From assembly GCF_900302465.1 (NCBI RefSeq), contig NZ_OMOR01000002.1:62001-126000 (forward strand): 64,000 nt of DNA, given 5' to 3'. Both the position numbers and the translations under genes were made by a program. Shown piece after piece: positions 36,748 to 54,237 of this stretch (positions within the stretch are counted from its first letter, which is position 1; each line of letters opens with the position of its first letter). This DNA is from Ascidiaceihabitans donghaensis. GTDB taxonomy: Bacteria > Pseudomonadota > Alphaproteobacteria > Rhodobacterales > Rhodobacteraceae. The notes below the pieces were generated by a model, which saw only the letters and a list, made by a program, of their open reading frames with translations, did not search any database and was not told where the DNA came from.

Positions 36748-38687
36748 GCTTGGTCGCTTCCATCAAAGGCAGCCGTCGGGCGCATTTTACGCAGTTTCTT
36801 TTGCTGTGCGCCGATGCGTCCACGGTCTTTGGACGGGTAGGCCGACAAAGGCGGGGGACCGCCATATAATGCTTGTAACGTGATGTCGCGCGCAATCGGT
36901 GCCGCGGCTTTTGATCCGCCGCCGCCGTGCTCCACTACAACGGCTACAGCGTATTTGGGGTTGTCGGCTGGTGCGAAATCCACAAACAACGCGTGGTCAC
37001 GCCGTTCCCATGGCAAGTCCGAGTTGCGGATGACACCGCGTGCACGTTCGGCGGCCGAGATGTTGCGCACTTGGCTGGTGCCGGTTTTGCCAGCCATCCG
37101 CATACCATCGGCGATAATGCGACTGCCGTAGGCCGTGCCGCGCCGGTCATTGACCACTGCAAACATGGCGCGGCGCATCTTGCGCAAGTTGTCATCGTCC
37201 AAAGGCAAAGGGCGGCCTGCGCCTGAGGGTTGTTCCACCCCGTCGATGGATTTCACAAGCCGCGGTTCGACACTGCGCCCGGTGGCCAGTCGGGCGGTCA
37301 TGACGGCCAACTGCAAGGGCGACGACAGCATGTATCCCTGCCCGATGGATGCGTTGACTGTGTCCCCGATCACCCAGTCTTTGCCGTGCGTTGTGGCTTT
37401 CCATGCTTTGGTGGGCGTCAACCCGCGCGCGACCGCAGACATAGGCACATCATGGCGCACGCCAAGCCCGAAGATGTTGGCCATGGCTGAAATCTTTTCA
37501 ATCCCGACTTTCAGCGCCAGATCGTAGTAGTAGACGTCGCAGGATTGCTTAAGCGAATTTTCCAAATTCACACTTCCGTGGCCTGCGCGTTTCCAGCAGT
37601 GAAACTTGCGATCCGCAACCTCAAGGTGGCCGGGGCAGCGCACTGTGTCTTCGGGCTCGATCAACCCTTCTTCCAGTGCGGCCATTGCCGTCATCATTTT
37701 AAAGGTCGATCCCGGGGGATAGGTGCCTTGCACTGTTTTGGATGCCAGCGGGCGGTATTTGTTTTCGGTCAATGCACTGTAGTCGGCCACCGAGATGCCG
37801 CGCACAAACAGGTTCGGATCATAGGTGGGCGCAGATGCAATGGCGACCAGATCACCGGTTTCACAGTCAATCACCACGGCGCTAGCGCTTTCTTCCGAAA
37901 GTCTGGCTTGCACGTAATTTTGCAATTCTGCATCGACGCTAAGCTGAATGTCTGATCCGGGGCGGCCTTCGCGGCGGCCCAGTTCGCGCATTTCACGACC
38001 GGCGGCGTTCACTTCGACCTGCCGTGTGCCTGCGGCACCGCGAAGTGCCGTTTCAACCTTGGCCTCGACGCCTACTTTTCCGATTTGAAAGCGCGGAATG
38101 CGCAACAATTCATCCGGATCATCAAGGCGGCTTAGATCGTAGTCGCTGACGGGGCCAACATACCCCAGAACATGTGCAAAATCAGAGCCCAAAGGATAAA
38201 CACGGCTAAGTCCGATTTCAGGGGCGACACCGGGCAGGGCAGGTGCGTTCACCGACACGCGGCTTAGGTCGTCCCAATCCACATCGTCAGCGACCGTGAC
38301 CGGGTGGAATGGTGCGCTGCGTTTTATTTCGGTCAGTGCGCGTTCCAGCACCTCTGCGTCCAGCTCCATCACTGTGGCCAGCTTGGTCAGGACTTTTTCC
38401 ACATCCCCCGCATCCTCGCGCACGATCTTGATTTGGTAGGTCGGGATGTTTTGTGCCAACTGCACGCCGTTGCGGTCAAAGACTTCGCCACGCGCGGGGG
38501 GGATCAGTTTGAATTTGATGCGGTTTTCTTCAGCCAACAGGCGGAACTGGTCGGCTTGATTGACTTGCAAGTGACGCATACGCGCGGCCAAACCGCCCAT
38601 AAACACCAGCTGAACGCCCCCCAAAATGGCAGCGCGGCGGGAAATCAGGCGGTGGTTTGCCTCTATGTCGGCGCGCGTGCGCTTCAT
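36744..38687 (-). CDS. mrdA: Penicillin-binding protein 2 (transpeptidase)
   Basis: The elongasome transpeptidase, 647 residues. It has an N-terminal membrane anchor (RRAAILGGVQLVFMGGLAARM), a dimerisation domain, and the catalytic motifs PPGSTFKMM (SxxK), SCDVYYYDLALK and KTGTSQVRN (KTG). The start overlaps the mreD stop. With mreB, mreC, mreD and rodA it makes the full lateral-wall machinery of a rod-shaped cell. Confidence 0.96.
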   Translation of the reverse strand: MKRTRADIEANHRLISRRAAILGGVQLVFMGGLAARMRHLQVNQADQFRLLAEENRIKFKLIPPARGEVFDRNGVQLAQNIPTYQIKIVREDAGDVEKVLTKLATVMELDAEVLERALTEIKRSAPFHPVTVADDVDWDDLSRVSVNAPALPGVAPEIGLSRVYPLGSDFAHVLGYVGPVSDYDLSRLDDPDELLRIPRFQIGKVGVEAKVETALRGAAGTRQVEVNAAGREMRELGRREGRPGSDIQLSVDAELQNYVQARLSEESASAVVIDCETGDLVAIASAPTYDPNLFVRGISVADYSALTENKYRPLASKTVQGTYPPGSTFKMMTAMAALEEGLIEPEDTVRCPGHLEVADRKFHCWKRAGHGSVNLENSLKQSCDVYYYDLALKVGIEKISAMANIFGLGVRHDVPMSAVARGLTPTKAWKATTHGKDWVIGDTVNASIGQGYMLSSPLQLAVMTARLATGRSVEPRLVKSIDGVEQPSGAGRPLPLDDDNLRKMRRAMFAVVNDRRGTAYGSRIIADGMRMAGKTGTSQVRNISAAERARGVIRNSDLPWERRDHALFVDFAPADNPKYAVAVVVEHGGGGSKAAAPIARDITLQALYGGPPPLSAYPSKDRGRIGAQQKKLRKMRPTAAFDGSDQA

Positions 38688-39223
38688 GCCCTGTCCCCCA
38701 ATGTGTCCAGATCACCGGGATTGGATTTGCGCACTCCCATAAACGCATGCGTCACCCCAGCAATCACCGGATAGATCAGAATGGTAAAGCCCATCTGCAT
38801 CAATGCCAGCCCAAAGCCCGGCATTTCAACCAACAATATCGAGAGGATCAGCCGATAGGCCAATGTCACGCCCAGAATCATGCCCGCCACAGTCAGCCAT
38901 TCAACGGGAAAGCCGGTGACGCGCAGACTGCCAATTTGGGCTTTGAGGCTTTCACACGCCAAAAGCATCAAAAAAGCCCAAAGACCGGGGGGACGTTGTA
39001 GAAGCAGATCGGCCATCAAAAAGACAACAGCCAACAGCAGCACGGGCACATATTCAGGGCGTCGCACGGTCCACGCAAAGGCAAACCCCATCAGCAAGTC
39101 CGGCATGACCCATCGTGCAGGCAGCGTGTCCAAAGGCAGAAGATGAAGAAAAATTATGCCAAAGGACAGGACTGTAAAATACAATCCCATAACCCACCGA
39201 CGCGATACGGACAGTTCATTCAC
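38684..39223 (-). CDS. mreD: Rod shape-determining protein MreD
   Basis: A 179-residue membrane protein with about five hydrophobic segments, little soluble sequence and the MreD-like RWVMPDLLMGFAFAWTVRRP and EWLTVAGMILGVTLAYRL. Recognition rests partly on its place between mreC and mrdA. It overlaps mreC by 8 bases and mrdA by 4. Confidence 0.9.
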   Translation of the reverse strand: MNELSVSRRWVMGLYFTVLSFGIIFLHLLPLDTLPARWVMPDLLMGFAFAWTVRRPEYVPVLLLAVVFLMADLLLQRPPGLWAFLMLLACESLKAQIGSLRVTGFPVEWLTVAGMILGVTLAYRLILSILLVEMPGFGLALMQMGFTILIYPVIAGVTHAFMGVRKSNPGDLDTLGDRA

Positions 39224-40112
39224 TGGCTGTGCCCTCTACCTGTTCGGTTAAGGTCAGGGGTGCCACGACCCCCGCACTGTCGCGCACCGGTTCGCTGCCG
39301 TAGCTGCGCAGCACGCGCAAAAATTCAAGCCGCTCATAATCAGCAGCCAGTCTGACACGCAAGCGCCCGCCCGGATCGGCAGCGACTTGACCTATCAGCA
39401 ATCCGGCGGGGAAAACCCCACCATCTCCAGAACTGACAACGCGGTCGCCGGGGCGGATCAAGTCGGGGTTCTCAAGGAAGTCGATCGGGGGGGCGGCGGT
39501 GTTGTCGCCGGCCACAATGACGCGCTGGCCAGAGGGCTGCACGATGGCGGGAATACGGCTTGAGGCATCCGTTAGCAAAATGACGCGGCTGGTGTTCTGG
39601 GCGACACCTGAAATGCGCCCCACCAAACCGATCCCGTCCATGGTGGCCCACCCATCAACCAAACCGTCACGCACGCCCACATTCAGCAACACAGACTGTC
39701 GGAACGGCGATCCTGAATCCGCCAATACGACACCCGTCACAAACGTCAGTCTTGGATCAAGACGGACGTTGTTCAGATCCAGCAGGCGCGCGTTTTCCTG
39801 TTCCAGCTGCAAAGCCGCTTCTTTCCACGACTGCATTTTACGCAATTCGCGGCGCAATTCCTGATTCTGTTCTGCAATGCGTTGGTAGCTTTGGAAATCG
39901 CGCAGCAAGTTGACGGTGCCTGTGACGGGGGCCATCGCCCAGTCAAAGTTCGGCACGATACGGTCCGTGACATGCAAACGAAACCGTTCCACACGCGGGC
40001 TGTCGATACGCCAAACCAAAAATATAGCAATCAGAACAAGCGATAAGACGACAAAAAGCAACCGCCGCAACGGACCTGCATAGTCGTAGTTGTTTGATCT
40101 ATCCTTGGCCAA
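39216..40112 (-). CDS. mreC: Rod shape-determining protein MreC
   Basis: MreC is the bitopic scaffold that activates PBP2. The 298 residues have one N-terminal membrane helix (LLFVVLSLVLIAIFLVW), a coiled coil of about residues 75-105 (RIAEQNQELRREL, QSWKEAALQLEQEN), and the beta-domain segments LNVGVRDGLVDGWATMDGIG and DRVVSSGDGGVFPAGLLIG. It lies 61 bases downstream of mreB. Confidence 0.95.
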   Translation of the reverse strand: MAKDRSNNYDYAGPLRRLLFVVLSLVLIAIFLVWRIDSPRVERFRLHVTDRIVPNFDWAMAPVTGTVNLLRDFQSYQRIAEQNQELRRELRKMQSWKEAALQLEQENARLLDLNNVRLDPRLTFVTGVVLADSGSPFRQSVLLNVGVRDGLVDGWATMDGIGLVGRISGVAQNTSRVILLTDASSRIPAIVQPSGQRVIVAGDNTAAPPIDFLENPDLIRPGDRVVSSGDGGVFPAGLLIGQVAADPGGRLRVRLAADYERLEFLRVLRSYGSEPVRDSAGVVAPLTLTEQVEGTASE

Positions 40113-40173
40113 TGCGGGGGTGTCCTGCTTGGGGTAGGGGCTTGGGAAGGCTTAGAAAACTAGGCCTGTTCCC

Positions 40174-41385
<1,212 letters not shown>

Positions 41386-41412: not shown

Positions 41413-41994
41413 ATGCGCAAAATTCAGGTGTTGGGTGTTCACCACATAACGATCATGGGGGCGGACAGGCAGACTTCGATTGATTTTTGGGAAGGTCTGT
41501 TGGGAATGCCTTTTATTTTCGACCAACCCAATCTGGACGATCCCGATGAAGGCCACTTGTATTTTGATCCCGGTGACGGTCGGTTGATCACCATTTTCAC
41601 CAATGAAGATCGCACTGCAGATCGGGGGCGCACCCCGACGGATGCCGGATGTGTGCATCATCTGGCGTTTGAAGTGGACAGGGCGATGTTCAGCCAGGTG
41701 CCTGGACGCCTAGACGCGCGGGGTATTGGCCATTCCGGTGTGAAAGATCGTGGGTTTATGGATTCCATCTATTTCAAGGACCCGCTTGGGCTTTTGATTG
41801 AACTTGCCTGTTACAAATTCATTCCGCCGCGTGGATCAAGCCATGCTGAAGTGATGCTGGAGGCGCATAAACTGCGCGTAGCGGCAGGGGATGCCGCCAT
41901 TGGCGAAGTCCATTTGGCAGATGCGGTTGAGTTGATCGTAGAACGCTCGCAAACCTCGTTAAGTGCTGACAGAACTGCCAAGCATCCATACTGA
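41413..41994 (+). CDS. VOC (glyoxalase/bleomycin-resistance fold) metalloprotein
   Basis: A 193-residue protein with two beta-alpha-beta-beta-beta modules. The metal-ligand pattern is His in VLGVHHITIMGAD, Glu in DEGHLYFDPGDG region, His in GCVHHLAFEVD and Glu in PLGLLIELACY. It resembles ring-cleaving dioxygenase or glyoxalase relatives, but the substrate is not clear. GGGGG precedes the ATG. It is followed by the GntR-led operon on the same strand, 93 bases away, and may be functionally linked to it. Confidence 0.82.
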   Translation: MRKIQVLGVHHITIMGADRQTSIDFWEGLLGMPFIFDQPNLDDPDEGHLYFDPGDGRLITIFTNEDRTADRGRTPTDAGCVHHLAFEVDRAMFSQVPGRLDARGIGHSGVKDRGFMDSIYFKDPLGLLIELACYKFIPPRGSSHAEVMLEAHKLRVAAGDAAIGEVHLADAVELIVERSQTSLSADRTAKHPY

Positions 41995-42061: not shown

Positions 42062-42074
42062 ATACAAATTGTAT
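42062..42074. promoter_or_regulatory. Probable GntR/FadR-type operator before the GntR-led operon
   Basis: ATACAAATTGTAT is a perfect odd palindrome (ATACAA, centre A, TTGTAT) in an AT-rich stretch, 13 bases upstream of the GntR start. TTGTAT/ATACAA half-sites are typical of FCD-type GntR regulators. Autorepression of the whole operon is inferred. Confidence 0.65.
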
Positions 42075-42087
42075 TGGAGAATCCCGA

Positions 42088-42792
42088 ATGACCAAAAATA
42101 AGAAAATACACTGCGGCGAAGACCTCAAAGCGCGTATTCTGACCCAGGATATTGCGCCGGGCACGGACCTTGATGAAGCGCGCCTTGCGGAAGAATATGG
42201 CATTTCACGCACCCCGTTGCGCGAAATTCTACACCGTTTGGCGGGGGGCGGTTTTGTGCGTCTGGAAGAAAATCGCGGCGCCAAAGTTGAATCCATGGAC
42301 CTTGCAACGCTGCGGGTGTTTTTCCAAACGGCCCCGTTGATCTATTGCGCGATTGCGCGTCAGGCGGCGGAAAATCGAACAAGCCGCCAGATTGCGGCAC
42401 TAAAGGACATTCAGGTCGCGTTTGCAGCAGCCACCAGAGCCCGCGACGTGTCGCAGTCAGCGCTTTTGAATCATCAGTTTCATGAGCAGATTGGCGAAAT
42501 GGCGCAAAATCCGTATCTTTTTGCCGGTCTCAAGCGGATGTTGATCGACCACACGCGCCTGAGCCAGACATTTTTCAACCCGCAGTCGTCCTCGGATGCG
42601 GCCCGCGTGGACAAGGCTATCGCCCAACACGATGCAATGATTGCAGCCATTGAAGCCGGACAAGCCGACGTCGCCATCGACCTGACACTGCAGCATTGGG
42701 ATCTGTCACGCGACCAGCTTGAAAAATATGTCCGGCCCGACCCGCTTCCCCTTGATGTGATTTCAATGAAAGACCGCCGCAATGCAATTTGA
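42088..42792 (+). CDS. GntR family transcriptional regulator, FCD type
   Basis: A 234-residue repressor-type regulator. The N-terminal winged HTH (ILTQDIAPGTDLDEARLAEE, SRTPLREILHRLAGGGFVRL) is followed by an all-helical FCD effector domain with the metal-ligand pattern NHQFHEQIGEMAQN and AQHDAMIAAIEAGQ. It is the first gene of a five-gene operon and overlaps the DapA-family gene by 11 bases. The palindrome at 42062-42074 is its likely operator. Confidence 0.9.
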   Translation: MTKNKKIHCGEDLKARILTQDIAPGTDLDEARLAEEYGISRTPLREILHRLAGGGFVRLEENRGAKVESMDLATLRVFFQTAPLIYCAIARQAAENRTSRQIAALKDIQVAFAAATRARDVSQSALLNHQFHEQIGEMAQNPYLFAGLKRMLIDHTRLSQTFFNPQSSSDAARVDKAIAQHDAMIAAIEAGQADVAIDLTLQHWDLSRDQLEKYVRPDPLPLDVISMKDRRNAI

Positions 42793-43690
42793 AGGTATTT
42801 ATACGCCACTGGTGACCCCCTATCACGACGACTTTTCGCTTAACGAAAAGGCGCTCGCCCAGACCGTAGAACATCTGATTGCCGCGGGTGTCCACGGGAT
42901 CATTGTCGCGGGGTCTACTGGCGAATACTACGCCCAGACCGAAGAAGAACGCGTCTGGATGATGAACCACTGCGCAAAGTTGATCGGTGGACGTGTTCCA
43001 ATGATTGTGGGCACCGGTGCCATTCGCACAGAGGACAGTATCCTCTATGCCCAAGAGGCCAAGAAAGCCGGTGCAGATGCGCTTTTGATTGCGACACCAC
43101 CCTATGCCTATCCCACGGGCCGCGAGATTGCATTGCACGCGTTGGCGATTGATCGTGCCGCTAATCTGCCCGCGATGCTTTATAATTATCCAGGCCGTAT
43201 GTCTGTGAACATGGACGAAGAAACGCTGGACCGCCTTGGCCGTTCGCCAAACTTTTGCGCCATCAAGGAAAGCAGCGGCGACATCAACCGTGTTCACATG
43301 CTGGCGCGCGATTACCCCCATATCGCACTGTCTTGCGGGATGGACGATCAGGCGCTCGAGTTTTTTGCATGGGGCGCGCGGTCGTGGGTCTGTGCGGGAT
43401 CAAACTTTGCCCCCGAGGCACATATCGCACTTTATCAAGCCTGCGCCGTTGAGGGGGATTTTACCAAAGGACGCGCCATTATGTCGGCCATGCTGCCGCT
43501 GATGGGGGTTCTCGAACAAGGCGGTAAGTTTGTGCAGTGTATCAAGTACGGCCTCACATTGCGCGGCATAGATGCCGGTCCACCCCGTCGGCCATTGCAA
43601 CCCCTGAACAAGGACGACAAACGCCAGTTGGCAGATGTCATCCGCACCATGAACACGGCAGTGTCTGCCATCACGGGAGAAGTTATATGA
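42782..43690 (+). CDS. DapA-family class I aldolase/lyase
   Basis: A 302-residue TIM-barrel lyase of the dihydrodipicolinate synthase / N-acetylneuraminate lyase superfamily: AGSTGEYYAQTEEER, Tyr134 in LYNYPGRM and the Schiff-base Lys162 in CAIKESSGD. Such enzymes form imines with pyruvate-like or 2-oxo acids; examples are DapA, 2-keto-3-deoxy-sugar dehydratases and 1-pyrroline-4-hydroxy-2-carboxylate deaminase. Context (catabolic operon with ALDH and FAD amine oxidoreductase) argues against lysine synthesis. It overlaps GntR and the ALDH gene. Confidence 0.88.
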   Translation: MQFEGIYTPLVTPYHDDFSLNEKALAQTVEHLIAAGVHGIIVAGSTGEYYAQTEEERVWMMNHCAKLIGGRVPMIVGTGAIRTEDSILYAQEAKKAGADALLIATPPYAYPTGREIALHALAIDRAANLPAMLYNYPGRMSVNMDEETLDRLGRSPNFCAIKESSGDINRVHMLARDYPHIALSCGMDDQALEFFAWGARSWVCAGSNFAPEAHIALYQACAVEGDFTKGRAIMSAMLPLMGVLEQGGKFVQCIKYGLTLRGIDAGPPRRPLQPLNKDDKRQLADVIRTMNTAVSAITGEVI

Positions 43691-45165
43691 GCGACCTTTT
43701 AACACAGGCCGAATACCAAGCCATCGCAGCTGATCTGGATTTTCCCCGTACCGCATTCATCGACGGCAAATACCGCGCCGGATCGGGCAGTGTATTCGCC
43801 ACCGTGAACCCCGTGACAGGCGATCCACTGGCCGAGATTTCGGGGTGCAATGCAGACGACGTTGACTTTGCCGTCAGCAAAGCCCGCGACGCGTTCGAAC
43901 AGGGCCACTGGTCCAAGATGCACCCATCGGACCGCAAGGATGTGTTGATCAAACTGTGCAAATTGATCACCCGCAACCGCCGCGAACTGGCGGTGATGGA
44001 AAGCCTCGATAGCGGCAAGCCGATCCTTGACTGCGAAACCATTGATGTGCCTGAAACCATCCATTGTATCAAATGGCACGCGGAGGCCGTGGATAAGATT
44101 TACGACCAGACCAGCCCGACGGGCGACGATGCAATTTCTATGATTGTACGTGAACCGATTGGTGTGGTGGGGGCCGTTTTGCCGTGGAATTTCCCTTTGA
44201 TGATGCTGGCTTGGAAGATTGGCCCCGCACTGGCGGCGGGTTGTTCCGTGATCGTCAAACCTGCGGAACAGACATCGCTGACCGCGCTGCGCGTCGCCGA
44301 ACTTGCCCATGAGGCAGGCATTCCGCGCGGTGTGTTGCAGGTCTTGCCCGGTGACGGCCCGTCTGTGGGCGAACCGCTGGGTTTGCACATGGATGTTGAT
44401 ATGGTCAGCTTTACCGGTTCGACCGAAACCGGAAAGCGGTTCTTGCGTTATGCGGCGGACAGCAATCTCAAAAAGATCGTGCTGGAATGTGGCGGCAAGA
44501 ACCCTGCCGTGGTGTTTGATGATGCCGAAAACCTCGATCATGTGGCGGGCCATGTGGTCAATGCGGCGTTCTGGAATGCGGGCCAGAACTGTTCTGCGAC
44601 CTCGCGGCTGATCGTGCATACGGCAGTCAAAGCGCCCCTGATGGAAAAGATCAAAGCGCGTCTGCGTGATTGGAAAGTAGGCGATCCGCTTGATCCGAAC
44701 ACGCATATCGGCGCGTTGATTGATGCAGAACACTGCAAAAAGGTGCGCAGTTTCCTTGACAAGAACGATCAGGGCGAGGGCCCGTTCGTGGCCCCCGTGA
44801 TTTACCATGTGAAGACAGGCGACGCCAAAGCCAGCGACGAAATTTTTGGCCCGGTCCTGTCCGTTATCGAAGTGGCCAGCAACGACGAAGCCATCGCCGT
44901 GGCCAATGACACAGACTACGGTCTTGCCGCGTCTGTCTTCACGGCAAACACACGCCGTGCCATTCGTGCGGCCCGCGATATTCGCGCAGGCACAGTGACC
45001 GTCAACTGCTACGGCGAAGGCGATATTGCGACCCCGTTCGGCGGTTACAAGCAATCGGGGTTTGGTGGGCGCGACAACGGTGTGCACGCCCATGACCAGT
45101 TTACGGAACTTAAAACGATCTGGATCGACCTCACCGATCCGCAAAGCGGAGATAACGTCGGATGA
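43687..45165 (+). CDS. Aldehyde dehydrogenase (PuuC/BetB-like)
   Basis: A 492-residue NAD(P)-dependent aldehyde dehydrogenase starting at the ATG overlapping the DapA-family stop. It has the LPWNFPLMMLAWKIGPALAA NAD motif, catalytic Glu in VLECGGKNP, catalytic Cys in NAGQNCSATSR and EIFGPVLSV. The sequence style is closest to amino-aldehyde dehydrogenases (gamma-glutamyl-aminobutyraldehyde, betaine aldehyde). In this operon it should oxidise an aldehyde formed by the FAD oxidoreductase or by the DapA-family lyase. Confidence 0.92.
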   Translation: MSDLLTQAEYQAIAADLDFPRTAFIDGKYRAGSGSVFATVNPVTGDPLAEISGCNADDVDFAVSKARDAFEQGHWSKMHPSDRKDVLIKLCKLITRNRRELAVMESLDSGKPILDCETIDVPETIHCIKWHAEAVDKIYDQTSPTGDDAISMIVREPIGVVGAVLPWNFPLMMLAWKIGPALAAGCSVIVKPAEQTSLTALRVAELAHEAGIPRGVLQVLPGDGPSVGEPLGLHMDVDMVSFTGSTETGKRFLRYAADSNLKKIVLECGGKNPAVVFDDAENLDHVAGHVVNAAFWNAGQNCSATSRLIVHTAVKAPLMEKIKARLRDWKVGDPLDPNTHIGALIDAEHCKKVRSFLDKNDQGEGPFVAPVIYHVKTGDAKASDEIFGPVLSVIEVASNDEAIAVANDTDYGLAASVFTANTRRAIRAARDIRAGTVTVNCYGEGDIATPFGGYKQSGFGGRDNGVHAHDQFTELKTIWIDLTDPQSGDNVG

Positions 45166-46712
45166 GCGTCGAAGCTGTCGGAACCACACGTCGCGGACGC
45201 GGTGCACGCAAAGCAGTGCGCCAAAAGCGTGACATCAATATGCTACCGGCCCTCAAACGCGGTATCCCCCTGACAGAACCGATGTCGCCTGAACAGGTGG
45301 TGCGGATCGACAATGCCTCAATGGATATTCTGGAAAACGTGGGCGTGGTGTTTCGCGATGATATTGCGCTGGCGGATTGGAAAAGGGCGGGTGCGGATGT
45401 GCGCGGTGAACGCGTGCACCTTGATCGGGGCCTCGTGCGTGAATTGATCAGCTCGATCCCGTCATCGTTCACCTATCACGCCCGCAATCCCGAAAAGAAC
45501 CTGCCGTTTGGCAACGACCATTCGATTTTTGTGCCAATGACAGGCGCGCCGTTCCTGCGCGATCTCGAAGACAAGCGACGCAATCCGACGCTGGATGATT
45601 TGGCGAATTTCCATAAGCTTAGCCATATGCTGCCCGCGATCCATTCGTCTGCGCACCATATTGTCGAACCTTACGATCATCCGATCAGCCAGCGGCATTT
45701 GCGTATCACTTACAGTTCGATGAAACACAGCGACAAGACGTTCATGGGCATGACAACAAGTCCCAAAAACGCCGAGGATGTGATGGACATGTGTGCCATT
45801 TTGTTTGGTCGCGATTTCATGATGACCCATCCGGTCGTGACAGGCAATTGTAACGGCAATTCACCTCTGGTTTGGGACGAAACCATGCTTGGGGCCTTGC
45901 GGGCGTTTGCGAAATATAACCAACCTATCCTGTGTTCGCCCTTTGTATTGGGCGGGGCCAACACGCCAGCGTCCACCGCAGCCACGGTCGCGCAACTTAA
46001 TGCCGAAGCATTATCCGCGCTGGCCTATACGCAGGTCGTTCGAAAAGGGACGCCTGCAATTTATGGCCACTACCTTGCCACTGTGTCGATGAAGTCGGGT
46101 GCGCCTATGGCTGGCACGCCGGAAATCAGCCTGATGAATATGATGATCGGTCAGATGGCACGCCACTATGATGTGCCATGGCGGACCTCTAACACGCTTG
46201 GGGGTGCCAAGACCTTTGATGCACAAGCCGGCTATGAAAGTGCAACCACGTTGATGGCTGTTCTTATGTCCGGGGCCAACTACATTTGGCATTCCGCAGG
46301 CTGGAACGAGGCAGGGATGCACTGTTCGATGGCCAAGTTTGTCGTGGATGCAGAGCAATGCGCCATGGGCCATCGCATGGCATCCGGCATCAAATGGGAT
46401 GATTTTGATCAGGCGCTTGCAGCCGTGGCTGATGTTGGGCCGGGCGGGCATTATCTGGGCCACCCCCACACGCTTGAGAAATTCCAAGACGCGTTTTTCA
46501 TGCCAGAAATGTTTGACAACAATTCCATTGAGCAATGGCAAGCGGATGGGGCAGTCGAGATCAATGAACGTGCGTTGAAACGTGTTCACGACTTGTTGGG
46601 CGAATACGAAGAACCCAAGCTTGATGAAGGCGTCAACGAAGAACTGCTGGACTACATCGCACGCCGTGAACGCGAGATCCCAGCCGCCGACTCCCTGAAC
46701 CAAGATCTGTGA
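45162..46712 (+). CDS. MttB-family (non-pyrrolysine) trimethylamine methyltransferase-like protein
   Basis: A 516-residue member of the trimethylamine methyltransferase superfamily: EPMSPEQVVRIDNASMDILE, GVVFRDDIALADWKRAGADV, DDLANFHKLSHMLPAIHSSA and a C-terminal WHSAGWNEAGMHCSMAKFV. It is read without any internal UAG, so it lacks the pyrrolysine of true MttB and falls with the glycine/proline betaine and carnitine demethylases. Those transfer a methyl group to a corrinoid protein, but no corrinoid-binding partner lies in the window. A basic leader (TTRRGRGARKAVRQKR) precedes the barrel. It overlaps the ALDH stop by 4 bases. Confidence 0.88.
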   Translation: MSVEAVGTTRRGRGARKAVRQKRDINMLPALKRGIPLTEPMSPEQVVRIDNASMDILENVGVVFRDDIALADWKRAGADVRGERVHLDRGLVRELISSIPSSFTYHARNPEKNLPFGNDHSIFVPMTGAPFLRDLEDKRRNPTLDDLANFHKLSHMLPAIHSSAHHIVEPYDHPISQRHLRITYSSMKHSDKTFMGMTTSPKNAEDVMDMCAILFGRDFMMTHPVVTGNCNGNSPLVWDETMLGALRAFAKYNQPILCSPFVLGGANTPASTAATVAQLNAEALSALAYTQVVRKGTPAIYGHYLATVSMKSGAPMAGTPEISLMNMMIGQMARHYDVPWRTSNTLGGAKTFDAQAGYESATTLMAVLMSGANYIWHSAGWNEAGMHCSMAKFVVDAEQCAMGHRMASGIKWDDFDQALAAVADVGPGGHYLGHPHTLEKFQDAFFMPEMFDNNSIEQWQADGAVEINERALKRVHDLLGEYEEPKLDEGVNEELLDYIARREREIPAADSLNQDL

Positions 46713-46713
46713 C

Positions 46714-48054
46714 ATGAGCCGCATCAACGTCAGCAGATTGCCCATCGATCCGGGCCCCGCCGCATGGAACGCGTTGCTGCCCGATGCGGCACCCGCGCAA
46801 AGCGTCGATGGCAACGAAACGGCAGATTGGATCATAATCGGTGCCGGATTTGCAGGGCTGGCTGCCGCGCGACGGCTATCACAGCTGTGTCCTACAGACC
46901 GCATTGTGGTGCTTGAGGCAAAGCGTGTGGCCGAGGGACCGGCGGGCCGGAATTCAGGCTTCATGATAGACCTGCCACATGATTTGTCGTCAGCAGATTA
47001 TGGCGGGGCCTTGGATCATGATATCTCGCTGACCGCTGACAACCGGCACGCTATCGATTTTGCGTCCGAAATGGCGCGCGACTTTGGTTTGGGTCCGGAT
47101 GCTTTTGTCCGCAGCGGCAAAATCAATGCCGCGGCAACGGAGAAAGGCTGCAGACACAATCGTGAATACGCAGGGCATCTTTCCGCGATGGGTGAAGCCC
47201 ACGAGATGCTGGATGCCGATGCGATGGCCGATATGACAGGCACGCGTTACTATCAAAGTGGGCTTTACACAGCGGGCACCGCGATCATCCAGCCTGCGGC
47301 GTTTGTGCGTGGCGTGGCGCGGGGGCTTGTGTCCAACAGAGTGCAGATTTTCGAAAACAGTCCGGTGACAACGCTTGAACGGAACGGCAATTGGACGGCC
47401 ACAACGCCATCAGGGTCCGTGACCGCGCCCAAAGTTATTCTGGCCGTGAACGGGCATCTCAACAGCTTCGGGTTTATGGAAAACCAACTGATGCATGTGT
47501 TTACCTATGCGTCGATGACGCGGGTGCTCACCGCACAAGAAGCGGCGACTTTGGGCGGTCACGCTATTTGGGGTGTCACACCTGCGGACCCGATGGGAAG
47601 CACGGTGCGGCGCATCCAAACGGCCCAAGGTCCGCGCATCGTTGTGCGCAACCGCTTTACCTATGACCCGACTATGGAGGTGGGCGAGCAGCGTATCCGG
47701 TCTGTTGGCCGTGATCACGATGCAGCGTTCAAGGCGCGCTTCGGGATGCTGGATGGTGTGGAGATGGAATATCGCTGGGGCGGGCGGCTGTGCCTCAGCC
47801 GCAACAATGTCAGCGTTGTGCGCGAAGTGGACACTGGCCTATACGCTGCGTGCTGCCAGAACGGGCTGGGCACAACACGCGGGACTTTGTCGGGGATACT
47901 TGCGGCAGAGCTTGCCACAAACACGCCTTCGGACCGGTTAAGCCGCGCTTTGGATGCAGATCCGCCATCAGTTCTGCCACCACCGTTTTTGACCAAAATC
48001 GGCGCCAAAGCCGTTTTGAAATGGCAAGAACGAAAAGCTGGGCTTGAGCTTTAG
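46714..48054 (+). CDS. FAD-dependent amine/amino-acid oxidoreductase (DAO family, PuuB/OrdL-like)
   Basis: A 446-residue flavoprotein with IIIGAGFAGLAAARRL (about 41-56), the EGPAGRNSGFMIDLPHD motif (75-91) typical of the PuuB/OrdL group, and a C-terminal CCQNGLGTTRGTLSG FAD-binding segment. Relatives oxidise secondary amines or N-methylated amino acids. It starts one base after the MttB-like stop and ends the operon, 23 bases from the opposing AraC-type regulator. Confidence 0.88.
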   Translation: MSRINVSRLPIDPGPAAWNALLPDAAPAQSVDGNETADWIIIGAGFAGLAAARRLSQLCPTDRIVVLEAKRVAEGPAGRNSGFMIDLPHDLSSADYGGALDHDISLTADNRHAIDFASEMARDFGLGPDAFVRSGKINAAATEKGCRHNREYAGHLSAMGEAHEMLDADAMADMTGTRYYQSGLYTAGTAIIQPAAFVRGVARGLVSNRVQIFENSPVTTLERNGNWTATTPSGSVTAPKVILAVNGHLNSFGFMENQLMHVFTYASMTRVLTAQEAATLGGHAIWGVTPADPMGSTVRRIQTAQGPRIVVRNRFTYDPTMEVGEQRIRSVGRDHDAAFKARFGMLDGVEMEYRWGGRLCLSRNNVSVVREVDTGLYAACCQNGLGTTRGTLSGILAAELATNTPSDRLSRALDADPPSVLPPPFLTKIGAKAVLKWQERKAGLEL

Positions 48055-48077
48055 AACGGAAGCGTAAAAGCGCACGG

Positions 48078-49121
48078 TTAAGGGCGGGTCTTGTCCTTGG
48101 TGCGCCCGCGATGCCCGTAAGGGGTTTCACCGTAGCGCGACTTGAAATGGCGCGAAAAGACGCTGTCGGAATTGAACCCTGCGGCCATGGCGACTTCCAT
48201 GACACTGAGATCCGTTTCCATCAACAGTGTTCGCGCCCTTTCCAAGCGAATGTTGCGGTAGGTCTGGGCAGGGGCTTCGTCCAGCAGTTGTTTGAACTGG
48301 CGTTCCATTTGACGGCGCGAAATGCCGGCGCTGCGGGCCAGATCCTCAAGATGCAAAGGGTTTTCGATGTTTTCATACATCGCCCGCAATGCCGCCAGCA
48401 CGCGGGGGTTTCTGGAACTGATGGCTTTGGCAATGGAAGACCGCTGTTCACTGCGTTTGGAAATGTCCGGCCCGTTCAGGCACATGTCCGACACGGCGAT
48501 GGCAAAGTCTTCGCCGTAGTCCTCTGCGATGACCGAAATCATCATTTCGGTGGCAGCTGCCCCCCCGCCACAGGTCAAAAGGGTCCCGTCACGCTCGAAC
48601 CTGTGACTGGAGGGGACAAGCTGTGGAAAGGTTTCAATGAAACCGGGCTGGTTTTCCCAGTGCAAAGTAAACTGTTTGCCATCCAACAAGCCTGCACGCG
48701 CCAATGTGGCAGCCCCCGTGCAAATGCCGCCTGCGTGACCACCAAACCGCACATGGTGGCGCAGGTGCGACAGCACAGAAGCCGACGCAACTTTGGTGCC
48801 ATTGTTGCCAGAACACGCGAAAAGATATGCCTCTGGGGGAAGATCACGCAGCGCCGCGTGTACGCTGATGTCGATACCGGAGGACGACGACACAGGTGCG
48901 CCGTCTTCAGACAAAACAAGCCAGCCGTATAGCGGCTTTTGTGCCAGTTGATTGGCAATGCGCAACGGATCCAAAGCGGCACTAAACGCCAATAAAGTAA
49001 ATTGCGGAAGCAACAAGAACCCGAACCACCGCGTGTCGCGGGGGGCTTTGACGGGATAGCTGAACGCGCCCGCTGGCACGAGATCGGGGCGATTTGAGGG
49101 GCTGAATACGCCGGTGTTCAC
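48078..49121 (-). CDS. GlxA family AraC-type transcriptional regulator (GbdR/CdhR-like)
   Basis: A 347-residue regulator with an N-terminal class-I glutamine-amidotransferase-like domain (FGFLLLPQFTLLAFSAALDP, GGICTGAATLARAGLL) and a C-terminal AraC HTH (LEDLARSAGISRRQMERQFK, VAMAAGFNSDSVFSRHFKSR). This architecture is that of GbdR and CdhR, activators of glycine betaine and carnitine catabolism. Its place beside the MttB/FAD-oxidoreductase operon supports a quaternary-amine substrate. Confidence 0.9.
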   Translation of the reverse strand: MNTGVFSPSNRPDLVPAGAFSYPVKAPRDTRWFGFLLLPQFTLLAFSAALDPLRIANQLAQKPLYGWLVLSEDGAPVSSSSGIDISVHAALRDLPPEAYLFACSGNNGTKVASASVLSHLRHHVRFGGHAGGICTGAATLARAGLLDGKQFTLHWENQPGFIETFPQLVPSSHRFERDGTLLTCGGGAAATEMMISVIAEDYGEDFAIAVSDMCLNGPDISKRSEQRSSIAKAISSRNPRVLAALRAMYENIENPLHLEDLARSAGISRRQMERQFKQLLDEAPAQTYRNIRLERARTLLMETDLSVMEVAMAAGFNSDSVFSRHFKSRYGETPYGHRGRTKDKTRP

Positions 49122-49348: not shown

Positions 49349-51514
49349 TTACGCTTGGTGTGCTTTCAGTTCCAACCGGCGCTTGTGCAATGTTGGTTCT
49401 GTATAGCCTGACGGATCTTTTGTTCCGCCAAACACCAGATCACAGGCCGCCTGATAGGCAATACCATCAAACGAAGGCGCCATGTTGGTGTAGCTGGCGT
49501 CGCCACTGTTTTGGCGGTCCACAATGGCGGCCATTTTTTGCATGATGGCATTCACATCGGCCTTCGAGATCACGTCATGGTGCAACCAGTTGGCGATGTG
49601 TTGGGCGGAAATCCGGCACGTTGCGCGGTCTTCCATAAGACCAACGTCATTGGCGTCCGGCACTTTGGAACAGCCGACGCCCTGATCAATCCAGCGCACC
49701 ACGTAGCCAAGAATGCCTTGCGCGTTGTTTTCCACCTCGCGGGCGATCTGGTCTTTGGACCATTTGCGATACGTCGCTGTTGGAATGTCCAGAAGCGCGT
49801 CCACATAGGCGCGGCGTCCGCCTTTGGCCAAACCGGCCTGAACCGCAAAAACAGCCACACGGTGATAATGCAGGGCGTGCAACGTCGCGGCCGTGGGGCT
49901 TGGCACCCAAGCACAGTTTGCGCCGGATTTTGGATGATCAATCTTGGCTTCCAACATGGCGGCCATATGGTCGGGAACCGCCCACATGCCTTTGCCAATC
50001 TGCGCTTTGCCAGACAGACCACATTCCAGACCGATGTCGACGTTCTGGTTTTCATATGCACCGATCCATCCTTTGCGCTTGATGAAATCCTTGCGGCTGA
50101 AAGGGCCGGCTTCCATAGAGGTGTGGATTTCGTCGCCGGTCCGGTCAAGGAAACCGGTGTTGATGAAACACACGCGATGTTTGGCGGCGCGGATACATTC
50201 CTTGAGGTTCACAGACGTGCGGCGTTCTTCGTCCATGATGCCCAGCTTGACGGTGTTTTGTGGCAGGCCAAGGATGCTTTCGACGCGGGTGAAGATCTCG
50301 TCTGCGAAAGCCACTTCTTCGGGGCCGTGCATCTTGGGTTTAACCACGTAGACCGATCCGGTTTGCGTGTTGCGCATCCCGTCTGTCTTCTTCAGGTCGT
50401 GCATCGCCAGCGTGGTGGTGATCAGCGCATCCATCAGACCTTCGAAGATTTCGTTGCCGTCTTTGTCCAGAACGGCCGGGTTTGTCATCAAGTGACCCAC
50501 GTTGCGTACCAGCAGCAAAGCGCGGCCTTTCAACGTCAGGTCGGACCCGTCCGGCGCATTGTAAACGCGGTCTGCGTTTAGGCTGCGGGTGACGGATTTG
50601 CCGCCTTTCTCGAAGGTGTCGGAGAGGTCGCCACGCATCAGGCCCATCCAGTTGCTGTAGGCCAGAACCTTGTCTTCGGCATCAACGCAAGCGACTGAAT
50701 CTTCACAGTCGATGATGGCAGACACAGCGGATTCCATCACCACGTCGGCCAGACCGGAGGCAGAGGTTTTTCCAATCGGGTGGTCACGATCAAACACCAG
50801 CACCACATGCAAATTGTTGTTGCGCAAAACCACAGCCGTGGGGGCGTCTGCAGGGCCTTCAAAGCCCACAAATTTTTCAGGAGCCACCAAAGGACCACCA
50901 TCCACCATCAAAGCGCCATCCACAACCGTGTAGCTGGAGGCTTGGCCGTGGCTTGTGTCTTTTACTGTGAATGCATCATCCAAAAAGACGGCTGCACGGG
51001 CCACAACACGCGCCCCGCGCCCGTCATCGAAGGGACCAGGCGCAGGTGATGTGCCCATCGCATCCGTTCCGTAAAACCCGTCATACAAGCTGCCCCAGCG
51101 CGCGTTCGCCGCGTTCAGAACAAACCGCGCATTCGTCACTGGCACAACAAGTTGTGCGCCTGCGACGGATGCAATTTCAGGGTCGACGTTGGATGTTTCG
51201 ATGGAGAAATCACCACCCTCGGGCAGCAAATACCCGATTTCTTGTAAAAACGCTTTGTAAGACGCCGCATCATGCGGGCTGTCTTTATGGCAACGGTGCC
51301 ACATATCGATCTGGGCTTGCAGCGCCTCGCGTTTGGCCAGAAGGGCACGGTTCTTTGGCCCGAATGTATTCGCCAAATCCGACAACCCGTTCCAGAATGT
51401 CTCTGAACTGATGCCAGTACCTTCCAAAGCTTGGCTTTCGATGAAATTTGCCAAAATCTCGTCAACCTGGATTTCGCTTTTCGTCAGGTAGTTAGGTGCA
51501 ACTTGGTCTGCCAT
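49349..51514 (-). CDS. glcB: Malate synthase G
   Basis: It condenses glyoxylate and acetyl-CoA to malate. The 721-residue length is that of the G isoform. The catalytic loop is clear ([40 protein letters not shown]), as are [13 protein letters not shown] and the C-terminal [11 protein letters not shown] and [13 protein letters not shown]. It is monocistronic with its own terminator and would assimilate glyoxylate- and acetyl-CoA-yielding substrates from the adjacent catabolic loci. Confidence 0.97.
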
Positions 51515-51625
51515 GATTCCTCACAAAGTGTTTTGCCTGCGCCTTGGTAGGTGTTTGACGGGTGATCTTCAATCCGTAGTCACGGCAGGCCAATCCACGG
51601 TTGTGATCCAAAATGGGCGTATGTC

Positions 51626-52540
51626 TTACTCAGGTGCGTTACACAGGTTTGCAATCAGCTTTGAAAAGGTGCGCATGGACACAGCGGGTATGTCTTCTGC
51701 GCGGCTCATAATGCCGACAGCACCGTGGGTTGCGGCCATTTCTACTGGCACTGTGACCAGCGTGTTTTGGTCAAGGTCGTTTGCCACAACCCCGCGACTG
51801 ATAACCCAAACCGTGTCCGGATCGCTTAACACAACGGCCCGCCCGAATGTCGGCGACGCAGTTTCAATGCGGTTTTGAAACAAAGGGACCCCTTGGGAAA
51901 TAAGGTGCCTCGCGACCAAAGGGCGGATTGCTGAATCCTTTGGGGGATAAAGAACGCGAAAGCCATCAAGGTCGGCTGCGGATTGCACATCCAAAGCGGC
52001 GCTATCTGGTCGCGCAACAACAACCACATTTTCTGAATAGAGTTGCTGGAAGCCAAGCCCGACCATTGTGTCGGGATTGCCCAACCGCCCAACCACCAGA
52101 TCAAGCCCACCGCTGCGCAAACGCGTCGTCAGATCGCGGTGAGACCCTTCGTACATTTCAAGCGTGGTGTTTGGGTTCAGCTTTTGAAACGCCAGAACAG
52201 CACGGGGCAAAAGCCGCGATGCAACACTTGGCAAAGCGCCCACTTTAAGCTGCCCCGCCGCGGTGCTGTGCGCATGCATGCTGCGCAATCCGTGGCGCAG
52301 GGCGGCCGTACTTTGTTCGGCAAATTGCAAAAACACTTCGCCTTGAGGCGTCAAAGCCACGCCAGAGCGGCTGCGTTCGAGCAACACAACGCCAAGGATC
52401 GTTTCAAGGTCTTTTAAGGTTTTTGAGATAGCAGGTTGCGTCAGGTTTAAGTCTTGGGCGGCTATCTTGAAACTGCTGGCACGCGCGATGGCGCTGAAGG
52501 CGTCGAGATGGCGAAATTTGATGCGTCTGTCCACATTCAT
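51626..52540 (-). CDS. pcaQ: LysR-type regulator, probable PcaQ
   Basis: A 304-residue LysR regulator: IKFRHLDAFSAIARASSFKI and LNLTQPAISKTLKDLE form the HTH, followed by a long effector domain. NVDRRIKFRHLDAF is the PcaQ-style start, so ATG 52540 is preferred over 52558. It is divergent from pobA, 92 bases apart. PcaQ proteins activate pca genes in response to carboxymuconolactone-type inducers. An alternative is a dedicated pobA regulator of the same subfamily. Confidence 0.82.
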   Translation of the reverse strand: MNVDRRIKFRHLDAFSAIARASSFKIAAQDLNLTQPAISKTLKDLETILGVVLLERSRSGVALTPQGEVFLQFAEQSTAALRHGLRSMHAHSTAAGQLKVGALPSVASRLLPRAVLAFQKLNPNTTLEMYEGSHRDLTTRLRSGGLDLVVGRLGNPDTMVGLGFQQLYSENVVVVARPDSAALDVQSAADLDGFRVLYPPKDSAIRPLVARHLISQGVPLFQNRIETASPTFGRAVVLSDPDTVWVISRGVVANDLDQNTLVTVPVEMAATHGAVGIMSRAEDIPAVSMRTFSKLIANLCNAPE

Positions 52541-52574
52541 TCCTTTTTGGGCAATCAAATGGCAAGAAGTGTCA

Positions 52575-52603
52575 TTTTCAATATCCGTTCAAATATATGA
52601 AAA
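52575..52603. promoter_or_regulatory. Possible LysR-type operator between pcaQ and pobA
   Basis: TTTTCA at 52575-52580 and TGAAAA at 52598-52603 are inverted, with inner AT-rich half-sites (ATAT...AATAT). This is the only notable dyad in the divergent region and may be the LysR binding site. It does not match the described PcaQ consensus well. Confidence 0.35.
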
Positions 52604-52632
52604 GTACAGCGCGGGGCAGGCAGGAGAACGGC

Positions 52633-53802
52633 GTGAAAACTCAGGTGGCGATTATTGGGGGGGGGCCGTCCGGGCTTTTGTTGGCGCAGCTTTTGCATAC
52701 ACGCGGGATCGACAGCGTGGTGCTGGAACGCAAAACCAAAGACTATGTGCTGGGCCGCATTCGTGCGGGTGTGTTGGAACAAGGCCTTGTCAAGCTGATG
52801 GAAGAAGCCGGATGCGCGGATAGGCTACACGCGGAAGGGATCACGCACGATGGCACTTTGGTGTCTTATGGCGATGAAATGTTCCGTGTCGATTTCACCG
52901 AACATACCGGAACACCCGTCGTGGTTTATGGCCAAACCGAAGTCACACGGGACCTTTATGACGCACGGGAACGCAGCGGGGGCACGATCGAATTCAATGT
53001 CGATGATGTGGTGATCCATGGCGCCGACACTGACACACCCCACATCACCTATACCGTTGCTGGCGAAGCCCGCAGCCTTACGTGCGATTTCATCGCGGGA
53101 TGTGACGGTTTCCATGGTGTAAGCCGGCAAACGATCCCACTGGACGTGCGCCGCGAATATGAAAAAGTCTATCCCTTTGGCTGGTTGGGCATCTTGTCAG
53201 AAACGCCACCGGTCAATCACGAACTGATCTACGCCAATTCCCCACGCGGATTTGCGTTGTGTTCAATGCGCAACGAAAATCTAAGCCGCTATTATATCCA
53301 GTGCTCTCTCAGCGACCGACCCGAAGACTGGACAGACGACGCCTTTTGGCAAGAACTCAAGCGCCGTATTCCGTCAGATCAAGCTGACAAGCTGGTGACG
53401 GGGCCAAGCATCGAAAAGTCCATCGCCCCGCTGCGATCTTTTGTGACAGAACCCATGCGTTGGGGGCGCTTGTTTCTGTGTGGGGATGCCGCCCATATTG
53501 TCCCTCCAACCGGGGCAAAAGGTCTGAACACTGCCGCCTCAGACGTCCACTATCTGTATAACGGATTGCGTGACTTTTACGAAAACGACAGCACCCAAGG
53601 CATCGACACCTATTCCGAAAAAGCCCTGTCCCGTGTCTGGAAGGCAGAGCGTTTCAGTTGGTGGTTCTCATCATTGATGCACCGGTATCCTGACCAGTCC
53701 GAATTCGATCTAAAAATGCAGTTTGCTGAAATAGAGTTTTTGCGGTCCAACACAGCGGCCCAACAGTCTATGGCCGAAAACTATGTCGGACTGCCGTATT
53801 GA
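52633..53802 (+). CDS. pobA: 4-hydroxybenzoate 3-monooxygenase
   Basis: PobA hydroxylates 4-hydroxybenzoate to protocatechuate using FAD and NADPH. The 389 residues begin with GTG after AGGAGAAC, giving KTQVAIIGGGPSGLLLAQLL, then LGRIRAGVLEQG, CDGFHGVSR and LFLCGDAAHIVPPTGAKGLN, all characteristic. Its length is exactly that of the family. pcaC follows 25 bases later. Confidence 0.96.
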   Translation: MKTQVAIIGGGPSGLLLAQLLHTRGIDSVVLERKTKDYVLGRIRAGVLEQGLVKLMEEAGCADRLHAEGITHDGTLVSYGDEMFRVDFTEHTGTPVVVYGQTEVTRDLYDARERSGGTIEFNVDDVVIHGADTDTPHITYTVAGEARSLTCDFIAGCDGFHGVSRQTIPLDVRREYEKVYPFGWLGILSETPPVNHELIYANSPRGFALCSMRNENLSRYYIQCSLSDRPEDWTDDAFWQELKRRIPSDQADKLVTGPSIEKSIAPLRSFVTEPMRWGRLFLCGDAAHIVPPTGAKGLNTAASDVHYLYNGLRDFYENDSTQGIDTYSEKALSRVWKAERFSWWFSSLMHRYPDQSEFDLKMQFAEIEFLRSNTAAQQSMAENYVGLPY

Positions 53803-53826
53803 TGGTGCTTCAAAAGGAGACGACAG

Positions 53827-54207
53827 GTGACTGATCGCTACACAAAAGGTATGCAAACCCGCCGCGCTGTTTTGGGCGATGCGCATGTAGACCGCGCTGA
53901 AACACAAACGTCCGACTTTGATGCCCCCTTTCAGACCATGATCACCGAAGGGGCATGGGGCACGCTTTGGGCTGACGACACGATATCCACGCGGGAACGG
54001 TCCATGCTGACCCTGTCGCTGCTTGCCGCCATGGGCAACTTTGAAGAAATCCCGATGCACATCCGCGCCACTGCACACACCGGCGCCAGCCCGCAAGACG
54101 TGTTGCAAGCCTTCATGCATGTGGCGGTTTATGCGGGCGTGCCAAAGGCCAATCATGCGATCAAACTGGCCAAACAAACCTATGCAGAAATGGGCATCAC
54201 AGTTTAG
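53827..54207 (+). CDS. pcaC: 4-carboxymuconolactone decarboxylase
   Basis: PcaC decarboxylates gamma-carboxymuconolactone to the beta-ketoadipate enol-lactone. The 126 residues show the AhpD-like helical fold with RYTKGMQTRRAVLGDAHVDR, GAWGTLWADD, LTLSLLAAMGNFEEIPMHIR and GVPKANHAIKLAK. It is 24 bases downstream of pobA and co-transcribed. The other protocatechuate genes (pcaGHBD) are not in the window. Confidence 0.94.
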   Translation: MTDRYTKGMQTRRAVLGDAHVDRAETQTSDFDAPFQTMITEGAWGTLWADDTISTRERSMLTLSLLAAMGNFEEIPMHIRATAHTGASPQDVLQAFMHVAVYAGVPKANHAIKLAKQTYAEMGITV

Positions 54208-54237
54208 CGGCTGTGTCTTTTGCCTAAGGTCAGGACC

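Follow-up and report, generated by a model that had tools for sequence, protein, structure and literature searches.

Organization of the operon

The 64,000-nucleotide stretch of Ascidiaceihabitans donghaensis DNA analyzed here (contig NZ_OMOR01000002.1, positions 62,001 to 126,000; hereafter the window) contains five plus-strand genes that overlap or abut and encode a GntR regulator, a DapA-family protein, an aldehyde dehydrogenase (ALDH), an MttB-family methyltransferase and a DAO-family flavoprotein. An AraC-type gene on the minus strand faces them. On balance, we favor the view that this operon serves the catabolism of a proline-type betaine, with 4-hydroxyproline betaine as the likeliest candidate, and that the pathway ends with a retro-aldol cleavage and oxidation of the aldehyde.

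The first gene encodes a GntR/FCD-family transcriptional regulator (42088-42792; Pfam PF00392 and PF07729) and overlaps by 11 bases with the gene for a DapA-family class I aldolase/lyase (42782-43690; PF00701). The latter in turn overlaps by 4 bases with the gene for an ALDH of the PuuC/KauB/BADH type (43687-45165; Pfam Aldedh). Another 4-base overlap leads to a non-pyrrolysine MttB-superfamily methyltransferase (45162-46712; PF06253), and the DAO-family flavoprotein (46714-48054; PF01266) follows after a gap of 1 base. The facing gene (48078-49121, minus strand) encodes a GlxA/GbdR-like AraC regulator (Pfam HTH_18 and DJ-1_PfpI; NCBIfam GbdR), whose membership in the operon is uncertain. The palindrome ATACAAATTGTAT (42062-42074) precedes the first gene and is the probable operator of the GntR/FCD regulator. 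The original prediction had described this layout, including the palindrome and the facing GbdR-like regulator, and both the sequence and the Pfam and NCBIfam assignments agree with it.

All six proteins contain Pfam domains that exceed the curated cut-offs, and none of the six scores over the cut-off of any NCBIfam model. The best NCBIfam models for the two regulators were phnR_burk for the GntR protein (96 bits, cut-off 272) and GbdR for the AraC protein (263 bits, cut-off 480).

Conservation of the operon in Rhodobacteraceae

In order to follow the operon through the family, 295 Rhodobacteraceae genomes, about one per genus, were compared. MttB orthologues (at least 75% identity) were present in 75 of them, the A. 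donghaensis genome included, and the next matches fell to 49%. Gene neighborhoods were compared in locus set A (80 loci) and locus set B (57 regions, in subsets of 17 and 40), which share genomes, so that their counts are not additive. The nearest MttB in set A, from Thalassobacter stenotrophicus, was 95% identical. Loci with at least 5 kb on either side of MttB (51 in set A, 50 in set B) are referred to as full-flank loci.

DapA, ALDH and DAO genes were found together near MttB in 48 of the 51 full-flank loci of set A, 47 times on the MttB strand, and a GntR gene was near MttB in 46. In set B, the trio was present in 39 of 50 full-flank loci, on the MttB strand in 19 and on the opposite strand, convergent to MttB, in 20. 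The five-gene operon is conserved in marine bacteria in two arrangements, one of them inverted; the original prediction had staked its case on such conservation of gene order. Since the core genes stay together across the inversion, the comparison is good evidence for a single function.

The palindrome also recurs. Matches to it (e.g. TTGTATACAA or ATACAnnnTGTAT) occurred no more than 160 bp upstream of the GntR gene in 42 of the 83 relatives with usable GntR and upstream sequence, compared with 5 of 1660 single-base shuffles; the search was a union of four patterns written after the window had been seen. The nearest relative in set A (locus L035) was not among the 42, and in the inverted arrangement a shared operator was found upstream of MttB in 0 of 27 cases. 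The place of the AraC gene is not conserved: a gene with at least 40% identity was found at this facing place in the window only. GlxA/GbdR-like regulators do occur near the operon in several relatives. The annotation of Yoonia sp. SS1-5 divides the GntR gene into two overlapping parts (L293, 8308-9011), and the gene may be split in this strain.

Some relatives have additional genes between MttB and DAO, which encode two SDRs, an enolase, a P450, an OYE-family flavoprotein or a VOC protein. In four loci (L054, 12664-13848; L074; L103; L109), the cytochrome P450 gene separates MttB from the two SDR genes.

Evidence for a proline-type betaine as substrate

The genes that accompany the operon in relatives point to the substrate class. 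An enolase resembling the hydroxyproline-betaine epimerase HpbD (at least 55% identity) was found in 16 of the 295 genomes, 15 of which also have an MttB orthologue (Fisher p 5e-9, without correction for kinship), and in 11 genomes no more than about 5 kb separates it from MttB. The enolase of locus L054 matched PDB entries 4e8g (E 3e-145) and 2pmq and 4h2h (E about 1e-130) far ahead of the next family (1e-63). We take 4e8g, 4izg, 4j1o and 2pmq to be HpbD proteins. Two of the enolase genes (genomes G193 and G270; loci L171 and L194) are full open frames of 367 residues, in which the stop that had been counted is most likely the end of the gene itself. According to PMC11961199, 4h2h is a 4-hydroxyproline betaine 2-epimerase.

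Plasmid pB of Cereibacter sphaeroides 2.4.1 carries MttB, the enolase, two SDRs, DAO, ALDH, DapA, GntR and betaine ABC genes, and its enolase beside MttB is 78% identical to the annotated hpbD product of Paracoccus pantotrophus. The inverted complete operon on this plasmid (L299, 2202-6290) adjoins xsc and pta (sulfoacetaldehyde acetyltransferase, taurine catabolism). A complete betaine transporter beside the operon was seen in C. sphaeroides strain CH10, and Yoonia sp. SS1-5 has a BCCT transporter gene behind an operon of the window type. The OYE protein of Roseovarius albus shares 47% identity with HpbA, the annotated N-methyl-L-proline N-demethylase, and HpbA homologues were present in 7 of the 40 MttB regions of the larger set B subset. 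Plasmid pAA02 of Aminobacter aminovorans (L301, 5803-13993) combines an MttB (51% identity to that of the window) and its own B12-binding protein with HpbD, a 661-residue FAD protein and a ProC-like gene. It is a second, independent pairing of MttB with HpbD.

More distant loci were collected with a DAO profile, which at E 1e-60 had matches in 30 of 398 genomes of the phylum. Twenty regions were taken from these matches, four of them from Rhodobacteraceae. An MttB match over half its length was lacking in 18 of the 20. Betaine ABC genes were present in 9, a proline-racemase-family gene in 7 and a gene for a Rieske-type oxygenase in 5. Betaine transporter genes occurred in none of the 19 proline-racemase-family (PF05544) loci of Rhodobacteraceae that served as controls, compared with these 9 of 20 distant loci. 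On pRL12 of Rhizobium johnstonii 3841, formaldehyde oxidation genes, GntR-DapA-ALDH-DAO, a glycine betaine ABC transporter and a GlxA regulator are accompanied by a gene annotated as 4-hydroxyproline epimerase and by an aromatic ring-hydroxylating (Rieske-type) oxygenase. Related gene sets were found in Agrobacterium vitis, Rhizobium ruizarguesonis and two Paracoccus plasmids. We read the GntR-DapA-ALDH-DAO quartet as a betaine module in which either a Rieske-type oxygenase or MttB acts as the first demethylase.

On pSymA of Sinorhizobium meliloti AK57 (L290, 4543-5430) and in Rhizobium sp. ACO-34A (L295, 1-2092), a DapA of a third kind (motifs SGTGMH, YNVPH and KDSSGD) is found no more than about 10 kb from the operon-type DapA. 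In the latter, genes for an FAD-dependent oxidoreductase and for ABC proteins come after this third DapA, and one of the ABC genes is annotated as proline/glycine betaine.

Because HpbD- and HpbA-type genes occur in relatives, and betaine ABC, proline-racemase-family and Rieske genes in distant loci, the substrate is probably a (4-hydroxy)proline-type betaine. The original prediction of an operon for an N-methylated proline-type betaine very probably named the right class, as judged from the HpbD and HpbA homologues, the betaine transporters, the 4-hydroxyproline epimerase and the Rieske genes.

Several observations weigh against this assignment. The linkages are infrequent: among full-flank loci, only 4 of 51 (set A) and 9 of 50 (set B) have HpbD near MttB, and 11 of the 50 in set B are without the DapA-ALDH-DAO trio near MttB. 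HpbA homologues were found in only 1 of 80 set A regions and 1 of 17 in the smaller set B subset, and one also occurs in 1 of the 19 control loci. Betaine ABC genes were near MttB in only 2 of 80 set A regions and in 1 of 17 and 3 of 40 set B regions, and a BCCT gene in only 1 of 80 and 1 of 17. In Gemmobacter fulvus and Ruegeria sp. B32, no betaine transporter is found near the trio, and Paracoccus sp. MA, Shinella and P. pantotrophus have HpbD with no trio beside it. In A. donghaensis itself, no HpbD was found in the genome (best match 27%), no gene of the proline-racemase family (PF05544), and hence no 4-hydroxyproline epimerase (4HypE) of this kind, is present, and there is no transporter among the genes adjoining the operon. 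The HpbA homologue of this genome runs with an AMP-binding ligase and an ALDH-like gene, unlike the annotated hpb cluster. Finally, the best PDB relative of the window MttB with a named substrate takes glycine betaine.

MttB and its putative corrinoid partner

The window MttB scored 718 bits against the Pfam MTTB model (cut-off 25) and 292 bits against NCBIfam trimeth_pyl (cut-off 525). Its gene has no in-frame stop and hence no amber (pyrrolysine) codon. In the PDB it matched 4yyc and the glycine betaine methyltransferase 9yce (E 4e-104). We propose that it may act as the first N-demethylase of the betaine. The operon contains no corrinoid gene. The only B12-binding_2 protein of the genome is encoded beside a DUF1638 gene, and a radical-SAM gene separates it from a homocysteine S-methyltransferase gene. 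We infer that this single MtgC-like corrinoid protein would serve the window MttB. The latter is 25-42% identical to the three other MttB-family proteins of the genome, and in a tree of 22 rows the Aminobacter MttB joined the operon MttBs (support 99/98), with these three outside on long branches.

DapA, ALDH and DAO and the proposed opening of the ring

The DapA-family protein resembles dihydrodipicolinate synthase (DHDPS). It scored 189 bits against the NCBIfam dapA model, under the equivalog cut-off of 206, and the genome has a separate DHDPS-family gene with a better score. An AlphaFold model (pLDDT 89) was closest in fold to 3na8, titled putative dihydrodipicolinate synthetase of Pseudomonas aeruginosa, which we take to be PA4188. 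Among the best 50 fold matches, 3na8 was followed by DHDPS, YagE and NAL (N-acetylneuraminate lyase), with TM-scores of 0.82-0.90 to the DHDPS structures listed. In an alignment with the genome's own canonical DapA as reference, the equivalents of DHDPS Thr45, Tyr107, Tyr133, Arg138 and Lys161 (in what we take to be E. coli DapA numbering) were kept in all 118 operon-type rows, which came from the window, sets A and B and the plasmid loci, were picked by likeness to the window DapA and include some genomes twice. The operon DapA has the full catalytic set of DHDPS; what sets it apart is the score under the cut-off, the presence of the better DHDPS gene elsewhere in the genome and its place in a catabolic-looking operon.

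DHDPS forms a cyclic imine that bears a carboxylate at position 2 and a hydroxyl at position 4. The five-ring analogue of this product is 4-hydroxy-1-pyrroline-2-carboxylate, from which the reverse reaction would give pyruvate and aminoacetaldehyde. Aminoacetaldehyde would be a fitting substrate for an ALDH of the PuuC/KauB type. The window ALDH is of this kind, in agreement with the PuuC/BetB likeness noted in the original prediction: the best NCBIfam model was PuuC (517 bits, cut-off 850), and the best PDB match was 7uyy (E 8e-200), presumably PA4189, followed by KauB. The tryptophan of its FWNAGQ motif was present in 114 of 114 rows with a letter at this position; the three ALDHs of proline-racemase-family loci have F (two) or S (one) there. 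This residue may lend weak support to an amino-aldehyde type ALDH. The tryptophan of the AWK motif was also considered as an amino-aldehyde marker and rejected, since the ALDHs of proline-racemase-family loci share it.

The DAO protein scored 122 bits against its best NCBIfam model, pipecolate AmaA (cut-off 600). A single-sequence search of the PDB returned nothing at 1e-6, and a profile search gave weak, partial matches only. Its AlphaFold model (pLDDT 86) resembles D-arginine dehydrogenase, glycine, sarcosine and N-methyltryptophan oxidases and DMGDH, with TM-scores of 0.59-0.68 over its length. The modeled fold fits an amino-acid or N-methyl amine oxidase and does not fix the substrate.

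The same substrate could also be degraded with a classical ending, as the original prediction had proposed. DAO would form the imine, DapA would deaminate it to 2-oxoglutarate semialdehyde, with release of ammonia or methylamine, and the ALDH would oxidize the semialdehyde to 2-oxoglutarate. The known trans-4-hydroxy-L-proline route uses these three superfamilies, and PMC4113996 (eLife 2014) takes DHDPS-, ALDH- and DAAO-family neighbors of hydroxyproline epimerases to make 2-oxoglutarate, which counts against the retro-aldol ending. In favor of the classical ending, Rhizobium and Agrobacterium vitis also have a gene annotated as 4-hydroxyproline epimerase within this gene run. In locus L233 (G068:C131, 3136-6306), DAO is flanked on one side by a ProC-like gene and directly downstream by a gene of the proline-racemase family that encodes a Ser-Cys dyad. 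For the protein encoded by this gene, the first NCBIfam model was trans-3-hydroxyproline dehydratase, below its cut-off, and the family models disagree on the reaction. The Ser-Cys dyad is also reported for 4HypE cluster 9 in PMC4113996.

We compared the operon enzymes with those of the 19 proline-racemase-family loci of the family, 13 of which have the Cys-Cys motif. DapA was present in nine of these loci, at 26-28% identity to the operon's, and ALDH at 34-36% in three and at 27% in a fourth; the operon DAO was matched in none of the 19. Eight of the nine DapAs were aligned, all from Cys-Cys loci (that of L222, cut at the end of its stretch, was omitted). All eight have Met or Cys, Arg, Tyr, Tyr and Lys at the five catalytic positions, and so differ from the Thr, Tyr and Arg that the operon rows share at the first, second and fourth. 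In at least two genomes (G053 and G043), a DapA of the classical loci occurs alongside the operon trio, so that a simple mutual replacement is unlikely. The ALDH, nearest to PuuC/KauB, reached 313 bits against the GudD-type 2-oxoglutarate-semialdehyde dehydrogenase model (cut-off 770). With DHDPS aldol residues retained in DapA, and with DapA, ALDH and DAO non-orthologous to those of proline-racemase loci, an ending at 2-oxoglutarate now looks doubtful and is no longer the best reading. The two endings are told apart solely by residues and family likeness. We place the retro-aldol, reverse-DHDPS ending at slightly below an even chance, ahead of the classical one.

Proposed pathway in A. donghaensis

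From the gene content, its conservation, the HpbD- and HpbA-type company in some relatives and the catalytic residues, we infer the following reactions, substrate and regulation. MttB would remove the first N-methyl group from the quaternary nitrogen and hand it over to the MtgC-like corrinoid protein, whose gene lies elsewhere, and from there it would reach tetrahydrofolate. The other methyl group would be taken off by an HpbA-type demethylase or be retained. DAO would then oxidize (N-methyl-)4-hydroxy-D-proline to the cyclic imine 4-hydroxy-1-pyrroline-2-carboxylate. Acting as a reversed DHDPS, DapA would form a Schiff base at C2 and break the C3-C4 bond, yielding pyruvate and (methyl)aminoacetaldehyde, which the PuuC-like ALDH would convert to glycine or sarcosine. 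Control of the operon would fall to the GntR protein, which would act through the palindrome and probably represses transcription.

If the N-methyl form is the substrate of DapA, one corrinoid demethylation by MttB would suffice, and no formaldehyde would be formed. This argument is weakened because the genome encodes an HpbA homologue with 70% identity to the annotated HpbA, on the chromosome and unlinked to the operon (G000:C1:3118172-3120214; L306, 8173-10284). The window strain may take up betaine already in the right configuration, or may use unlinked genes. Because HpbD was not found in the window genome, we do not place the operon in the hpb cluster, and consider it rather a variant of hydroxyproline-betaine catabolism.

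Alternative substrates

Plain proline betaine is an improbable substrate, although part of the evidence would suit it. In this case, MttB and a second demethylase would lead to N-methyl-proline and proline, DAO and a ProC-like reductase would interconvert D- and L-forms, and DapA and ALDH would have a side role. A ProC-like gene is found near MttB, between ALDH and MttB, in 10 of the 51 full-flank loci of set A, and ProC-like genes occur in the annotated hpb cluster of P. pantotrophus and in the Aminobacter MttB-HpbD cluster. However, DapA, ALDH and DAO are equally frequent with MttB (48 of 51 each), and the window operon has no ProC-like gene. To our knowledge, proline catabolism needs neither DapA nor ALDH.

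Less probable still is a betaine derived from carnitine, choline or polyamines, in which the ALDH would oxidize a trimethylaminoaldehyde, MttB would demethylate and DAO would oxidize the secondary amine. The PuuC/KauB/BADH kind of ALDH and the GbdR-like facing regulator are in line with this idea, and betaine/choline ABC transporters are not specific to one betaine. Against this, DapA would have no obvious task, and the HpbD and HpbA homologues, the ProC-like gene and the hydroxyproline epimerase in relatives would be unexplained. The original prediction had named carnitine or polyamines as the main alternative, and no recurrent gene supports these, although no search was aimed at genes for carnitine or polyamine degradation. 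Homarine, trigonelline or another aromatic N-methyl alkaloid is very improbable as the substrate, as a paper citing the homarine pathway ties it to Mgd and not to MttB, and as Rieske oxygenases, the sole ring-attacking enzyme class searched for, were present in 0 of 80 set A and 1 of 40 set B MttB regions.

Relation to known systems

The closest known system is the hpb cluster on pPAN2 of P. pantotrophus (hpbA, Rieske-type oxygenase, hpbD, fdhA). Relatives of the window operon have homologues of HpbD (57-78%) and HpbA (47%) and may also carry ProC-like and betaine ABC genes. The first demethylase of pPAN2 is a Rieske-type oxygenase, whereas the window operon has MttB instead, and none of the genes annotated in the pPAN2 stretch shown encodes a DHDPS-family protein or a general aldehyde dehydrogenase.

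The MtgB/MtpB-type MttBs of Desulfitobacterium and Eubacterium limosum belong to the same superfamily as the window MttB, as seen from the match to 9yce, and MtpB demethylates proline betaine according to PMC8604678. In contrast to these systems, the window operon is without a corrinoid gene and is linked to DapA, ALDH and DAO. For roseobacters, PMC12478193 describes glycine betaine demethylation by MtgC/MtgD together with methionine synthesis. The A. donghaensis genome likewise has one corrinoid protein, with the homocysteine S-methyltransferase one gene away, but the window MttB stands apart from the three other MttB-family genes. The classical hydroxyproline route, as outlined in PMC4113996, shares the superfamilies of three steps, and in Rhizobium the gene annotated as 4-hydroxyproline epimerase joins the quartet. 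The operon DapA, ALDH and DAO are nevertheless non-orthologous to the enzymes of the classical loci in the family, and the catalytic residues of DapA differ.

The exact operon was not found described in the literature searched, which did not cover Kumar 2014 (mBio), the likeliest place. The later enzymes may cut the ring in a new way, and we suggest, tentatively and with somewhat less confidence than for the ending as such, that the operon encodes a hydroxyproline(-betaine) pathway not described so far, with DHDPS chemistry in reverse as the means of cutting the ring.

Neighboring genes in the window

The VOC gene upstream of the operon (41413-41994), like the place of the AraC gene, is not conserved. 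It is preceded by a run of cell-shape genes on the minus strand (35596-41271), of which MreB (40174-41271) was identified by NCBIfam and the others resemble MreC, MreD, PBP2 and RodA by eye. On the other side, the operon adjoins an aromatic-catabolism stretch (49349-57131) with malate synthase G, PcaQ, 4-hydroxybenzoate 3-monooxygenase and PaaZ according to NCBIfam.

Implications

The complete gene set on pB of C. sphaeroides 2.4.1 makes the proposal directly testable. If the retro-aldol cleavage is true, it would be a new way of opening hydroxyproline, and vague names in many genomes, such as dihydrodipicolinate synthase family and aldehyde dehydrogenase, could be replaced by testable functions. 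An MttB route, unlike a Rieske oxygenase, needs no oxygen. The presence of an MttB orthologue in 75 of the 295 genomes suggests a B12-linked route by which such betaines would feed one-carbon metabolism.

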